Source of the DNA: Arthrobacter sp. UKPF54-2
GTDB taxonomy: Bacteria > Actinomycetota > Actinomycetes > Actinomycetales > Micrococcaceae
Direction: 5' to 3'
NCBI RefSeq assembly: GCF_007858535.1
Contig: NZ_CP040174.1
Coordinates: forward strand, 2,232,001-2,296,000
Length of the DNA stretch: 64,000 bases
Part shown: positions 9,304-60,851 of the stretch, one piece after another
Layout: each line of letters begins with the position of its first letter
Numbering within the stretch: position 1 is the stretch's first letter
Position numbers and translations under genes: made by a program
Notes under the pieces: generated by a model
The model's input: only the letters and a program-made list of their open reading frames with translations
The model's database searches: none
Told to the model about the DNA's origin: nothing

Positions 9304-10635
9304 ATGACTTCCAGCCACCCTCGCAACGAGGAACTTTTCGACCGCGCCCGCCGGCTGATGCCCGGCGGCGTCAACTCGCCGGTCCGGGCCTTCGGCTCGG
9401 TGGGCGGCACCCCGCGCTTTATGGTCTCCGCCAAGGGCCCGTACCTGACCGACGCCGACGGCGCCGAGTACGTCGACCTGGTGTGCTCGTGGGGCCCGGC
9501 CCTGCTGGGGCACGCCCACCCGGCCGTCCTCGCGGCGGTCCACGCCGCCGTCGACCGCGGGCTCTCCTTCGGCGCCTCGACCCCGGATGAGGCCAACCTC
9601 GCCGCGATCGTCCAGGAACGCGTCCCGGCCGCCGAACGCGTCCGGATGGTCTCCACCGGCACCGAGGCCACCATGACCGCCATCCGGCTGGCCCGCGGCT
9701 ACACCGGGCGCAACCTGGTGATCAAGTTCGCCGGCTGCTACCACGGCCACCTCGACGGCCTCCTCGCCGCCGCCGGCTCCGGCCTTGCGACCCTCGCGCT
9801 GCCCGGCTCGGCCGGCGTCACCGCCGCCACGGCCGCCGAGACCCTCGTGCTGCCGTACAACGACCTGGCCGCCGTCGAAGCCGCCTTCGCGGCGCATGGT
9901 CCCAACATTGCCGCGGTCATCACGGAGGCCGCGCCGGCCAACATGGGTGTGGTCACCCCGGGCGAGGGCTTCAACGCCGGCCTGGCCCGGATCACCCGCG
10001 AGCACGGCGCCCTGCTGATCCTCGACGAGGTCCTCACTGGCTTCCGCACCGGCTACTCGGGCTACTGGGGCCTCACCGGCGGGGCGGCCGGCGCCGCCGA
10101 ACCCTGGTCCCCGGATCTGCTCACCTTCGGCAAGGTGATCGGCGGCGGCATGCCGACGGCGGCCCTTGGCGGCCGCGCCGACGTGATGGACTACCTCGCC
10201 CCGGTGGGCCCGGTCTACCAGGCCGGCACCCTCTCCGGGAACCCGGTGGCGATGGCCGCCGGCGTCGCGACCCTGACCCACGCCACGCCCGAGGTCTACT
10301 CGTTCGTCGACGCCCGGTCGCTGGAACTCTCCGGCGCCCTGTCCTCGGCCCTGGACACCGCCGGCGTGGACCACTCCATCCAGCGCGCCGGGAACCTGTT
10401 CTCCGTGGCCTTCGGCACCTCGGCCCGCGGCGTCCACAACTACGACGACGCCCAGGGCCAGGACGTCTTCCGCTACGCGCCGTTCTTCCACTCGATGCTG
10501 GACTCCGGGGTCTACCTGCCGCCGTCGGTGTTTGAGGCCTGGTTCCTCTCCGCCGCGCACGACGACGCGGCGATGAACCGGATCTTCGACGCCCTGCCGG
10601 CCGCGGCGAAGGCCGCGGCGGCCGCGACGGCCTAG
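9304..10635 (+). CDS. hemL: Glutamate-1-semialdehyde 2,1-aminomutase
   Basis: PLP enzyme that converts glutamate-1-semialdehyde to 5-aminolevulinate, the entry of the C5 haem pathway. The 443-residue product begins with [18 protein letters not shown], has the [19 protein letters not shown] segment, the [12 protein letters not shown] motif with the cofactor aspartate, and [12 protein letters not shown] with the PLP-binding lysine. ATG 9304 is preceded by AGGAACC; the upstream in-frame extension overlaps the previous gene and is not conserved sequence. It is the last gene of the cluster and is followed by a strong hairpin. Glutamyl-tRNA reductase (hemA) is not in the window and may lie upstream. 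Confidence 0.95.
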
Positions 10636-57374: not shown

Positions 57375-58499
57375 ATGCGAGTTCTTGCAGCCATGAGCGG
57401 CGGCGTCGATTCCGCCGTCGCCGCAGCCCGTGCCGTCGAGGCCGGCCACGACGTCGTCGGGGTCCACCTCGCCCTCTCCCGCATGCCCGGGACGCTGCGC
57501 ACCGGCAGCCGTGGCTGCTGCACCATCGAGGACTCCCGCGACGCCTGGCGGGCCTGCGACGTGCTCGGCATCCCGTACTACGTCTGGGACTTCTCCGAGC
57601 GGTTCAAGGAGGATGTCGTCCAGGACTTCATCGACGAGTACGCCGCCGGCCGCACCCCCAACCCGTGCATGCGCTGCAACGAGCGGATCAAGTTCGCTGC
57701 CCTGCTGGAGAAGGCGATCGCGCTGGGGTTTGACGCGGTCTGCACGGGCCACTACGCCAAGGTGATCACCGACGCCGACGGCAACCCGGAACTGCACCGC
57801 GCCGCGGACTGGGCGAAGGACCAAAGCTACGTGCTGGGCGTGCTGACCCACGAGCAGCTCCGGCACTCGATGTTCCCGCTCGCCGACACCCCGTCCAAGG
57901 CGGAGGTCCGTGCCGAGGCGGAGCGGCGCGGCCTGTCGGTCGCGAACAAGCCCGACAGCCACGACATCTGCTTCATCCCCGACGGCGACACCGCCGGCTG
58001 GCTGGCCGAGAAGATCGAGATGACCACCGGCGACATCGTGGACGAATCCGGCGCCAAGATCGGTGAGCACCCCGGCGCCAACGCCTTCACCGTCGGCCAG
58101 CGCCGCGGCCTGAAGCTGGGCACCCCGGCCGCCGACGGCAAGCCGCGCTTTGTGCTGGAGATCCGGCCCAAGGAAAACAAGGTGGTGGTGGGTCCCGAGG
58201 CCCTGCTGGCCATCGACGAAATCCGGGGCATCAAGGTCTCCTGGGCCGGGCTGCCGATCGCCGAGATCGCCACCGGCGCGGAGTTCGACTGCCACGCCCA
58301 GGTCCGCGCCCACGGCGACCCCGTCCCGGCAACCGCCCGGATGGAGCACGCCGCGGGTTCGGGCGACCTGGTGGTCACGCTGGCGGAGCCGCTGCGCGGC
58401 GTCGCCCCGGGCCAGACCGTGGTGCTGTACCAGGGCAGCCGGGTCCTGGGCCAGGCGACCATCGACGCCGCCCGGTCGAGGCAGCGCGCGGCCCTGTAG
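57375..58499 (+). CDS. mnmA: tRNA-specific 2-thiouridylase MnmA
   Basis: Adenylates and thiolates U34 of Lys, Glu and Gln tRNAs. 374 residues from ATG 57375; the longer frame to 57285 lacks homology. P-loop [13 protein letters not shown], the catalytic cysteine in [14 protein letters not shown], the second catalytic cysteine in [18 protein letters not shown] and the DQSYVLGVL motif are all present. The sulfur source is probably the cysteine desulfurase at 54699. Its 3' side runs directly into the hairpin repeat array. Confidence 0.96.
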
Positions 58500-58533
58500 C
58501 GCCCTTCCCGGTTTTCGACGCCCCGCGCCGGAG

Positions 58534-58572
58534 GGACATGCCCGTTTTTCGGCCCGGGCGAAGGGCATGTCC
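58534..58572. repeat. Hairpin module A1 of the array
   Basis: Perfect 10-bp inverted repeat GGACATGCCC / GGGCATGTCC around a 19-base loop that itself contains CGGCCCGGGCG. Module A3 (58857-58895) has the same perfect arms; A2 (58695-58733) has one arm changed to GGACATGTCC. Confidence 0.9.
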
Positions 58573-58593
58573 GCCGGCGGGTGCCTGGCGGAG

Positions 58594-58672
58594 GGACATG
58601 CCCATTCTTCGCGGCCACGAGTGGGCATATGGGGATTATGTCCATTCCTAGGTCCGCGCGAAGAGTATGTCC
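58594..58672. repeat. Compound module B1 of the array
   Basis: 79 bp, the same length as B2 and B3. It contains two hairpin-like halves sharing a centre GGGCATATGGGGATTATGTCC (21 bases apart from the leading T), flanked by CATTCTTCGCGGCC on the left and, in B2/B3, ATTCTTCGGCCCGGGC on the right. B1 is the most diverged copy (CCTAGGTCCGCGCG, right arm AGTATGTCC). Confidence 0.85.
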
Positions 58673-58995
58673 GCTTGCCGGAATCTCCTCGGAGGGACAT
58701 GTCCATTCTTCGGCCGGGGTAAAGGGCATGTCCGCTGCGGGTGCGTGGGGCGGAAGGGCATGTCCATTCTTCGCGGCAACGAGTGGGCATATGGGGATTA
58801 TGTCCATTCTTCGGCCCGGGCAAAGGGCATGTCCGCCTGCCGGAATCTCCTCGGAGGGACATGCCCATTTTTCGGCCCGGGCGAAGGGCATGTCCGCCCG
58901 CGGTGCCAGGGCCCAAGGGCATGTCCATTCTTCGCGGCCAGGAGTGGGCATATGGGGATTATGTCCATTCTTCGGCCCGGGCAAAGGGCATGTCC

Positions 58996-59216
58996 GTCGA
59001 AGATCCCCGCCGCAGAGAGTGCCGAAGATCCGGCCCATATCCTGCAGAAAACGCTGAGTTCCTTCGGATCGTGTAAATTTTGTGTCTCAACTCACAAGAT
59101 TTGACGATGCACCCCACGGTCTTCTGGTTGAATCTAGGAATCAGGACAGTGAGCTGCCCCACGAGTCAAGCTACCTCGGGCAGCGGACTAGTACTCATCG
59201 AACAGAAAGTTCACAG
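58996..59216 (+). other. Leader region of the peptide transporter operon
   Basis: 221 bp without a gene between the repeat array and the binding-protein start. It is more AT-rich than the surroundings around 59071-59105 and has a 5-bp inverted repeat TTGTG/CACAA (59080-59097). The operon promoter must be here or in the array; no confident -35/-10 pair was found. Confidence 0.4.
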
Positions 59217-60851
59217 ATGGCAATGAACAAAAAAGCCCTGCAGAGCGCCATCGCGCTCGCCGGGGTTTCCGCCTTTGCATTGACGGCCTGCACCGGCCCT
59301 TCCGGGGGCGGAACGTCCTCCGGCAGCGCCGCAGGCGGAGGCACCATTACGTACGGCACCACTGACAAGGTGGTCACCCTTGATCCAGCCGGCTCCTACG
59401 ACGCCGGCTCCTTTATGGTGATGAACCAGATCTACCCGTTCCTGATGAACTCGAAGCCCGGAACGGCCGATTCCAGCCCGGACATCGCCGAGTCCGCTTC
59501 CTTCACGAGCCCGACCGAGTACACCGTCAAGCTCAAGTCCGGCCTGAAGTTCGCCAATGGCCACGCCCTGACGTCCTCCGACGTGAAGTTCTCGATCGAC
59601 CGCGTCGTGAAGATCAACGACGACAACGGCCCCGCCTCCCTGCTGGGCAACCTCGCCTCGGTGGAAGTCAAAGACGACTCCACCGTGGTGTTCAAGCTCA
59701 AGGAAGGCAACGACCAGGTCTTCCCGGGCGTCCTCGCCGCCAACGCCGGCCCGATCGTCGACGAAGAGGTCTTCCCGGCCGACAAGCTGATGAGCGACGA
59801 CGAGATCGTCAAGGGCAAGCCCTTCGCCGGCCAGTACACGATCGAGAGCTACAAGAAGAACGAGCTCATCAGCCTCAAGGCCAACCCGGACTACAAGGGC
59901 ATGCTCGGCAAGCCCGCGAACGACAGCGCCACGATCAAGTACTACGCGGACTCCAACAACCTCAAGCTCGATGTCCAGCAGGGCAACATCGACGTCGCCG
60001 GCCGCAGCCTGACCGCGACCGACGCCGCCGACCTCGAGAAGGACTCCAAGGTCAAGGTCCACAAGGGCCCCGGTGGCGAACTGCGCTACATCGTCTTCAA
60101 CTTCGACACCATGCCGTTCGGTGCCAAGACCCCCGAGGCCGACCCGGCCAAGGCCCTGGCCGTCCGCCAGGCGATGGCCAGCGTCGTCGACCGCGATGCG
60201 ATCGCCAGCCAGGTCTACAAGGGCACCTACCTGCCGGCGTACTCCGTGGTCCCCGACGGCTTCGTCGGCGCCATCAAGCCGCTCAAGGACATGTACGGCG
60301 ACGGCAACGGCAAGCCCAGCCTCGACAAGGCCAAGAAGGCCTTCAGCGACGCCGGCGTCACCGCCCCGGTCACCCTGAAGCTGCAGTACAACCCGGACCA
60401 CTACGGCAAGTCCTCCGGCGACGAGTACGCCATGATCAAGGAGCAGCTGGAGAAGTCGGGCCTGTTCAAGGTCGACCTGCAGTCCACCGAGTGGGTCACC
60501 TACAACAAGGACCGCACCAAGGACGTCTACCCGGTCTACCAGCTCGGCTGGTTCCCGGACTACTCCGACGCCGACAACTACCTGACCCCGTTCTTCATCC
60601 CGGGCAACTTCCTCAAGAACCACTACGAGAACGCCTCCGTGACGGACCTGATTAAGAAGCAGCTCACCACCGTTGACAAGAGCGCACGCGAAAAGGTGCT
60701 CGGTGACGCCCAGACGGCCGTCGCCAAGGACCTCTCCACGCTGCCGCTGCTGCAGGGCGCCCAGCTGATGGTCGCCGGCAAGGATGTCCAGGGGGTCGAC
60801 AAGACCCTCGACGCTTCCTTCAAGACCCGTCTTGGAGTAATTTCCAAGTAG
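59217..60851 (+). CDS. Peptide ABC transporter substrate-binding lipoprotein (SBP family 5)
   Basis: 544 residues from ATG 59217 (ATG 59223 also possible), AGAAAG upstream. Lipobox FALTAC with Cys25. The SBP_bac_5 domain shows TLDPAGSYDAGSFMVMNQIYPFL near the N-terminus, YTVKLKSGLKFANGHALTSSDVKFSIDR, and VRQAMASVVDRDAI. It captures dipeptides, oligopeptides or related ligands for the permeases at 60983 and 62076. Codon use is strongly biased, consistent with high expression. A hairpin separates it from the permease genes. Confidence 0.94.
   Translation: MAMNKKALQSAIALAGVSAFALTACTGPSGGGTSSGSAAGGGTITYGTTDKVVTLDPAGSYDAGSFMVMNQIYPFLMNSKPGTADSSPDIAESASFTSPTEYTVKLKSGLKFANGHALTSSDVKFSIDRVVKINDDNGPASLLGNLASVEVKDDSTVVFKLKEGNDQVFPGVLAANAGPIVDEEVFPADKLMSDDEIVKGKPFAGQYTIESYKKNELISLKANPDYKGMLGKPANDSATIKYYADSNNLKLDVQQGNIDVAGRSLTATDAADLEKDSKVKVHKGPGGELRYIVFNFDTMPFGAKTPEADPAKALAVRQAMASVVDRDAIASQVYKGTYLPAYSVVPDGFVGAIKPLKDMYGDGNGKPSLDKAKKAFSDAGVTAPVTLKLQYNPDHYGKSSGDEYAMIKEQLEKSGLFKVDLQSTEWVTYNKDRTKDVYPVYQLGWFPDYSDADNYLTPFFIPGNFLKNHYENASVTDLIKKQLTTVDKSAREKVLGDAQTAVAKDLSTLPLLQGAQLMVAGKDVQGVDKTLDASFKTRLGVISK

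Follow-up and report, generated by a model that had tools for sequence, protein, structure and literature searches.

The array lying between mnmA and a peptide-importer gene in Arthrobacter sp. UKPF54-2 is one of 23 loci in this genome that share a common design of palindromic modules, here called A and B. It occupies positions 58534-58995 of the window, which is the whole 64,000-nucleotide stretch analyzed (G000:C1:2232001-2296000, where G000 is the 3,517,818-base single-contig genome of the strain itself). On balance, we slightly favor the reading that the array belongs to a lineage-specific family of sites in double-stranded DNA, scattered over the chromosome, and that this family is the cis component of a system whose trans component would be an AbiEi/Vsr-like protein encoded between typA and fdxA. 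The computed results behind this reading are the A/B architecture, the dispersal of the modules, shared positions with sequence turnover, placement 3' of genes, the lack of a REP-associated tyrosine transposase (RAYT) in the genome, and the co-occurrence of the arrays with the typA-fdxA gene, which they bracket.

A dispersed family of palindromic modules

The surroundings retrieved across the UKPF54-2 genome showed a recurring architecture based on a 10-bp palindromic box, GGRCATGYCC, mostly placed at steps of 29 to 32 bp. Two inward-facing boxes 19 bp apart make up the A module, and the B module takes the form box-19-GGACATA-N7-TATGTCC-19-box, with its outer boxes 69 bp apart. The box is also a half-site of the human p53 consensus, which we take to be a coincidence. 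The box plus its extension (up to 2 mismatches) gave 48 matches in the genome, compared with 0 for the reversed control. The box-N19-box pattern (up to 1 mismatch) gave 33 places against 0 for its reversed control, and only two of these lay outside array loci, one at 2296834, immediately beyond the right edge of the window, and the other at 3513199, where a pair of boxes stands close to the end of the contig. The central core (up to 3 mismatches) was found at 35 places compared with 7 in the control, all in arrays except two 3-mismatch places. Chance matches alone accounted for 2 of the 15 places fetched (L032 and L044). With R1, a sequence-only profile built from 21 B modules, we counted by hand 34 full B modules at 40 bits or more in the 23 array loci of the 3.5-Mb genome; one locus (3049-3050 kb) extends across a small gene and thus fills two gaps.

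Over all loci gathered, there were 257 distinct B modules, of which 121 were retained after those with at least 70% identical spacers were dropped. The half-site consensus is roughly CCRnK-GGRCATGYCC-WnYSYTnG-nnnCnRSSRnT-GGACATA. The boxes of B are directed toward the core on both the left (130/143) and the right (129/142); the profile used for this scoring was derived from an overlapping set. Steps between boxes were most often 69 (130 instances), 29 (105), and 32 bp (70), and thus the arrays consist mostly of A and B modules joined by linkers of about 22 bp; some runs of boxes share a single direction. Modules of one array had a common orientation in 28 of 30 pairs, and the two 19-bp spacers of one B module were less alike than chance (z = -3.1), which together suggest a weak hidden polarity of B. 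We found no named family for this repeat and no publication on it among the titles and abstract beginnings of the literature listed on Arthrobacter repeats, RAYT/REPIN, and the box sequence; RepRanger offers table figures for Arthrobacter livingstonensis (PMC12306157).

Distribution among genomes

Exact modules were present in 9 of 59 genomes (UKPF54-2 included), all within the genus, and in 0 of the 22 genomes of other families. At an E value of 1e-9 or lower, R1 matched 44 of 150 genus genomes, again with UKPF54-2 included. The load per genome was uneven, given that 39 of the 44 had at least 25 matches (of at most 31 scored), five had 1 to 17, and the other 106 genomes had none. A scan of GTDB genomes for the modules returned at least 120 stretches, and the titles of the 80 of 120 that were listed named Arthrobacter in 75 cases, Pseudarthrobacter oxydans CC185 in 4, and a Ramlibacter metagenome-assembled genome in 1. 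This last contig (L235) carries an exact B module and is possibly a mis-binned Arthrobacter contig. Viral contigs, plasmids, and phages gave no module matches, and we rejected phages and plasmids as carriers of the array on this ground. A tree of mnmA from 31 genomes (25 array-positive and 6 array-negative) requires two changes of the array label and nests the array-negative genome G018 among the positives, with moderate support from this single gene.

The preliminary description of this DNA had allowed for a local duplication or an assembly product. The three window units are indeed alike (87% matches with Tandem Repeats Finder, whose score of 720 was the top of 19 window rows), but modules are present in many independent assemblies, and the chance that such an artifact explains the array is negligible; we consider it excluded. 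The copy count that the preliminary description proposed, across this and other Arthrobacter genomes, is answered by the numbers above.

Placement relative to genes

All 34 B modules of the UKPF54-2 genome lie between genes, as judged with a codon-usage gene caller and a manual comparison of modules with gaps; a few clusters are extended by a chance box within an adjacent gene. Among 84 array loci (from the 80 of 120 stretches plus the UKPF54-2 loci), 31 sat between convergent, 48 between tandem, and 5 between divergent genes. In tandem gaps, the array was closer to the upstream stop codon in 41 of 48 cases (medians, 70.5 versus 200.5 bp). A stricter caller gave 5 divergent gaps among 76 with arrays, compared with 68 of 179 other gaps of 150 to 1500 bp from these stretches (p = 6e-8). 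The expectation of further copies that are intergenic and mostly 3' of genes was borne out, as was a REP/BIME-like layout (repetitive extragenic palindromic sequences and bacterial interspersed mosaic elements). Many array flanks in UKPF54-2 resemble core genes, as named by eye. We rejected an origin- or terminus-linked distribution given that dnaA is at 1183 kb with an array 49 kb away, and a gap seen by eye was meaningless. The 3' placement and the shared positions described below suggest a boundary role.

Shared positions, turnover, and loss in G018

We compared the positions of 109 array loci, 23 from UKPF54-2 and 86 from at most 30 other assemblies (80 of 120 stretches). Both flanking families were common to 116 of 5513 between-genome locus pairs, and 17 of 61 positions were common to at least 2 genomes (up to 8). 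Even in this small comparison sample, 12 of the 23 UKPF54-2 loci recurred. In the gap between a VOC gene and rpsP, the core and boxes were kept in all six loci that were cut out (8 of the group's 9 loci were submitted), and the loci differed in module number, order, and spacers. At the corresponding place in G018 (L312, approximately 9500-9556), we noted by eye a long inverted repeat on a sequence that recurs in other species.

With relaxed E values, R1 found two places in G018, at 31.9 and 23.4 bits, which are decayed modules at the UKPF54-2 loci at 666 and 457 kb. Six further UKPF54-2 loci could be placed in G018. At the 498-, 777-, and 2584-kb loci, the flanks continue and 11 to 55 bases replace the array; at the 2142-kb locus, more than the array itself is deleted; and at the 782- and 2190-2192-kb loci, the neighborhood is rearranged or occupied by other genes. 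The same relaxed search gave one chance-level match each in G020 and G016. In G114, there were 38 weak R1 matches, representing a drifted version of the family with boxes such as GAGCATGTCC and cores such as TGGACATGGC..ATGCCCA (L300-L307).

Slowly decaying remnants of an old mobile element, with no present function, would also be dispersed, clade restricted, absent in relatives, and subject to one near-complete loss. We nevertheless hold this explanation to be quite improbable because decay should blur all columns alike, and the boxes and core are sharp while the spacers at shared positions diverge strongly, a pattern that is partly due to ascertainment, since the modules were found by motif.

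A candidate partner gene between typA and fdxA

The gene order at this place is typA, a gene for a 98-aa protein with no Pfam match, a gene for a 272-aa protein, and fdxA. The 272-aa protein gene is bracketed by a pair of arrays in UKPF54-2, and this pair recurs in other assemblies. Proteins of this type are annotated in the source as "AbiEi family antitoxin domain-containing protein." Among 41 aligned homologues, PF18741 was detected in 41 and AbiEi_4 in 38 at an E value of 0.001, and the nuclease-like part has an invariant set of acidic and histidine residues that forms a putative active site. For the UKPF54-2 protein, a sequence search found no PDB chain up to an E value of 1, PADLOC matched AbiEi models weakly and Hhe once, and NCBIfam gave one match far under its cut-off. 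We recognized no AbiEii-type (DUF1814) toxin gene adjoining it. A search for homologues found 255, and among the best 120 of 255 that were listed, P0001-P0105 shared at least 62% identity over most of their length, with later ones at about 52% or fragments. The source names of the P0001-P0105 group are Arthrobacter or Pseudarthrobacter, plus one unplaced bacterium.

We surveyed the typA-fdxA place in 13 genomes with arrays and 6 without (UKPF54-2 and G018 counted) and located it in 12 of the 13 positives (not in G147) and in all 6 negatives. In 12/12 located positives, the gene has an open frame, is bracketed by arrays, and encodes a protein of 74 to 100% identity, with 3 to 11 boxes and at least one core on its 5' side and 4 to 9 boxes and at least one core on its 3' side. 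Boxes fell within the last 300 bp 5' of the gene in all seven genomes examined. None of the six negatives has an orthologue at this place: the gene is absent there from G018, G020, and G026, broken distant homologues are present in G006 and G016, and G001 has an open homologue of 49.6% identity with no arrays; a repeat scan around the G001, G006, and G016 homologues found no arrays. In G018, the gap is occupied by other genes, and the arrays and the gene both appear to be lost. The co-occurrence of gene and arrays was significant (Fisher p = 5.4e-5, or 7e-4 if G001 is scored as present). The G114 protein is 70% identical, with box-like sites flanking its gene and a match to the core 3' of it, and G114 is a natural case for the co-evolution of site and protein. 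Compared with the UKPF54-2 protein, the winged-helix part of the G114 protein is the least conserved region (31/56 identical).

A family of REPs or REPINs moved by a RAYT (Y1) transposase would likewise be palindromic, extragenic, and arrayed as BIMEs, and G032, an array-positive genome of the genus, carries two matches to PF01797. However, PF01797 matched only 3 of 59 genomes, of which 1 was among the 37 of the genus (G032), with no match in UKPF54-2 or the other array-positive members of this genus set. The GTAG tag was at 3 of 242 module ends compared with 4 of 242 in a control stretch, and CGTC was at 16 versus 8, which is too rare for a tag. We therefore rejected RAYT as the partner; this explanation, which the preliminary description had raised together with a search for the enzyme, is very improbable. 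Two other candidates were also rejected. For an extra ParB, each of 17 genomes had one strong match (119 to 125 bits), and extra weak matches (44 to 47 bits) occurred in G024, G100, and G114 only. For a dedicated tyrosine recombinase, the array-positive G010 had two PF00589 matches, equal to the array-negative G001.

The arrays could instead be sites for another chromosome-organizing or boundary protein, or for gyrase as at BIME-2, with the AbiEi-nuclease gene as a neighbor or passenger. Gyrase is described as binding and cleaving BIME-2 in Escherichia coli (PMC6379681). The placement 3' of genes, the avoidance of divergent gaps, the shared positions, and the regular 29/32-bp steps all fit this explanation, but it leaves the joint loss in G018 and the 12/12 bracketing unexplained, and we regard it as a serious though unlikely alternative.

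DNA sites or RNA structures

Pairing across the dyad of 21 UKPF54-2 modules was 72.2%, compared with 73.1% in shuffles. In the 121 pooled modules, the spacers showed no covariation (885 versus 882.6), the core covaried (904 versus 893 ± 3.2), and the boxes paired slightly above shuffles (1062 versus 1051 ± 5.9) when pooled with no within-genome control. We then considered shuffling within genomes, using 102 modules from 17 genomes (80 of 120 stretches plus the UKPF54-2 loci), for which the outer boxes had a z score of -0.1, the spacers (positions 11-23) -3.1, and the inner arms (24-36) +2.8. When 62 modules located in tandem gene pairs were read on the sense strand, the count of G-U (69) did not significantly exceed that of A-C (53). 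Given that the boxes lack within-genome covariation and a clear wobble bias, they behave as double-stranded DNA sites; the sequence patterns favor this assignment for the outer boxes, and the protein-binding array put forward earlier is plausible. The inner 13-7-13 palindrome of B may need real complementarity.

Could the arrays be RNA elements, that is, mRNA 3'-end hairpins that terminate transcription or stabilize transcripts? The predicted folds are strong (z = -2.9 to -6.1), although these may follow from the palindromic boxes alone. The 3' placement, the covarying inner arms, and the pooled signal of the outer boxes are also consistent with an RNA role. At the 666-kb locus, UKPF54-2 (L100, 3559-3643) and G018 (L308) both have a T-run directly after a B module; this module may have turned into an intrinsic terminator. 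In addition, several array-free relatives among those listed show, by eye, a stem and T-run 3' of mnmA. Against an RNA role, the outer boxes did not covary within genomes, the spacers anti-covaried, and G-U was not significantly above A-C. The arrays are nearly symmetric, with a weak orientation bias with transcription (25:12, p = 0.047) in rows that are not independent; collapsing related rows left 9 groups at 3 versus 4, which is uninformative. Canonical terminators were as frequent at array ends as at other ends (12/99 versus 12/120, p = 0.67), and therefore the replacement of intrinsic terminators by arrays, suggested by the mnmA locus, was rejected as a general rule. Rfam gave no match over threshold in 57800-59800. 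An RNA element is, in our judgment, improbable, and of the earlier proposal of an mRNA 3'-end stabilizer, what stands is that a few modules resemble terminators.

The window array and its surroundings

The window array has the order A-B-A-B-A-B, and the coordinates, module lengths, and period of about 161 bp given in the preliminary description all hold (Table 1). The A modules are all 39 bp and the B modules all 79 bp, with units spaced 162 and 161 bp apart. The lengths are exact, as was said of these "near-identical" units, but the term is a little strong for A2 and B1. Likewise, the single local array was real, and it turned out to have many counterparts in the genome. The array starts 34 bp after the mnmA stop codon. 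GGGCATGTCC (up to 1 mismatch) had 22 matches in the window compared with 9.3 ± 3.2 in shuffles; 0 of 100 shuffles reached 22, and the highest single shuffle had 21. Post-mnmA arrays were also found in G066, G100, G024, and G108. The mnmA position is not universal, given that the other array-positive genomes among the relatives listed have no array there.

Table 1. Features of the window array, its flanks, and the candidate partner gene (window positions unless marked G000)
Feature	Position	Strand	Description
A1 module	58534..58572	.	Inward-facing boxes GGACATGCCC-N19-GGGCATGTCC; perfect 10-bp arms
B1 module	58594..58672	.	Box-19-core (GGGCATA-N7-TATGTCC)-19-box; right box degenerate (GAGTATGTCC); profile 64.4 bits
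Core (central palindrome) of B1	58622..58644	.	TGGGCATA-N7-TATGTCCA
A2 module	58695..58733	.	Single mismatch between arms
B2 module	58756..58834	.	Profile 71.1 bits
Core of B2	58784..58806	.	
A3 module	58857..58895	.	Perfect 10-bp arms
B3 module	58917..58995	.	Profile 71.4 bits
Core of B3	58945..58967	.	
mnmA, upstream flank	57393..58499	+	Named in the preliminary description and by eye
First peptide-importer gene (solute-binding protein), downstream flank	59223..60851	+	Named in the preliminary description and by eye
272-aa AbiEi-like/Vsr-like protein gene	G000 2190836-2191654		Between typA and fdxA, outside the window, ~97 kb from mnmA

Two palindromes near the array were noted in addition. 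A TTGTGTCTCAACTCACAA-like palindrome at 59074-59100, 5' of the peptide-importer gene, is kept in many relatives with or without the array and looks like an operator. A perfect hairpin, GGGCATGCCCGCCGTTC-ACTGC-GAACGGCGGGCATGCCC, lies 0.8 kb beyond the right end of the window (G000:C1:2296834-2296872); its two ends carry array boxes, it has no core, and it is possibly a terminator or a lone A module.

Discussion

By analogy, we read the arrays and the typA-fdxA gene as a system that would work like a REPtron, with a dispersed repeat population and one enzyme gene framed by repeats, the enzyme being unrelated. REP/BIME repeats bind gyrase, IHF, or Pol I. The likeness to REP/BIME and REPIN-RAYT systems lies in short extragenic palindromes that occur in many copies and are regularly arrayed 3' of genes, and in a single-copy enzyme gene flanked by repeats, as the AbiEi-nuclease gene is in the located array-positive genomes. 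The present family differs in its candidate AbiEi-Vsr-like partner in place of a Y1 HUH transposase, in its lack of the end tags, and in its 10-bp boxes at fixed 19-bp spacing, its special 79-bp module, and its many positions common to species. Since the Y1 enzyme is absent from UKPF54-2, the system is not REPIN-RAYT. Repeats that are CGTC-tagged or untagged and REP-like are described as palindromes dispersed without RAYT (PMC3733652), and the difference here is that a non-RAYT partner candidate has been identified. Tyrosine-recombinase sites would come with a dedicated recombinase, which the PF00589 comparison of G010 and G001 did not reveal.

AbiEi antitoxin and Rv2827c, of type IV toxin-antitoxin systems, are described as binding pairs of inverted repeats (PMC7319586). 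Given that the partner shares with them a predicted two-domain AbiEi fold with a winged-helix domain, its AbiEi part is predicted to bind the inward-facing box pairs. It is not half of an AbiE toxin-antitoxin pair, because no toxin gene was recognized next door, and it further differs in having an extra nuclease domain and about 23 loci instead of one promoter. Residues 170-270 carry the acidic/histidine set, and their predicted fold may resemble that of Vsr and the homing endonucleases of the EDxHD class. Unlike homing endonucleases, the gene shows no sign at its locus of lying within an intron or intein, and the domain is fused to AbiEi, with many potential targets in its own genome for the putative active site.

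Binding, nuclease activity, and a benefit to the host are what we infer for the partner protein. Bound arrays would regulate the partner gene itself, and those elsewhere would mark gene ends. The nuclease part would rarely nick or cut arrays, and repair would copy neighboring modules, which would duplicate and homogenize modules in place, the role that RAYT has for REPINs. Once the gene was gone, the arrays would be lost, as in G018.

Several points weigh against this two-part reading. The AbiEi_4 match of the UKPF54-2 protein is barely above the cut-off (25.2 versus 25 bits), and its PF18741 nuclease match is below it (27.9 versus 38.2 bits). The predicted folds of residues 2-167 (compared with 6y8q, a two-domain AbiEi) and 170-270 (compared with Vsr 1cw0 and I-Bth0305I 3r3p) match near the tool's noise level. 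The array-negative genomes were surveyed at typA-fdxA alone, so that a copy of the gene elsewhere is possible, and 4 of the 6 belong to one tree group, leaving about three independent contrasts. Lenient patterns gave chance matches in negatives (the core once each in G006 and G016; the box once each in G001 and G016 and twice in G018). The homologue in G001 shows that the protein family can exist without these arrays. The bracketing could be a coincidence if typA-fdxA were merely a favored position for arrays. Finally, the inner 13-bp arms of B covary, which DNA sites alone do not predict.

A broader and more tentative idea, which we think rather unlikely, is that AbiEi winged-helix/Vsr-like nucleases form a second class of enzymes that tend repeats, distinct from RAYT. 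Each would keep arrays of dyad boxes at fixed positions, amplified and homogenized by nick-and-repair, in a host that depends on the arrays as gene-end boundaries. If true, relatives now annotated merely as toxin-antitoxin parts would each have a hidden repeat family. REPINs with their RAYT are described as the best-known inherited bacterial repeat population with one dedicated enzyme (PMC8049555). A second case of repeats plus enzyme, with an unrelated, toxin-antitoxin-derived enzyme, would let the shared traits and the host service of such populations be asked. The arrays give a testable target sequence for a protein type named only for its AbiEi-family antitoxin domain, and G018, apparently without gene and arrays, is a natural knockout for this system in Arthrobacter.
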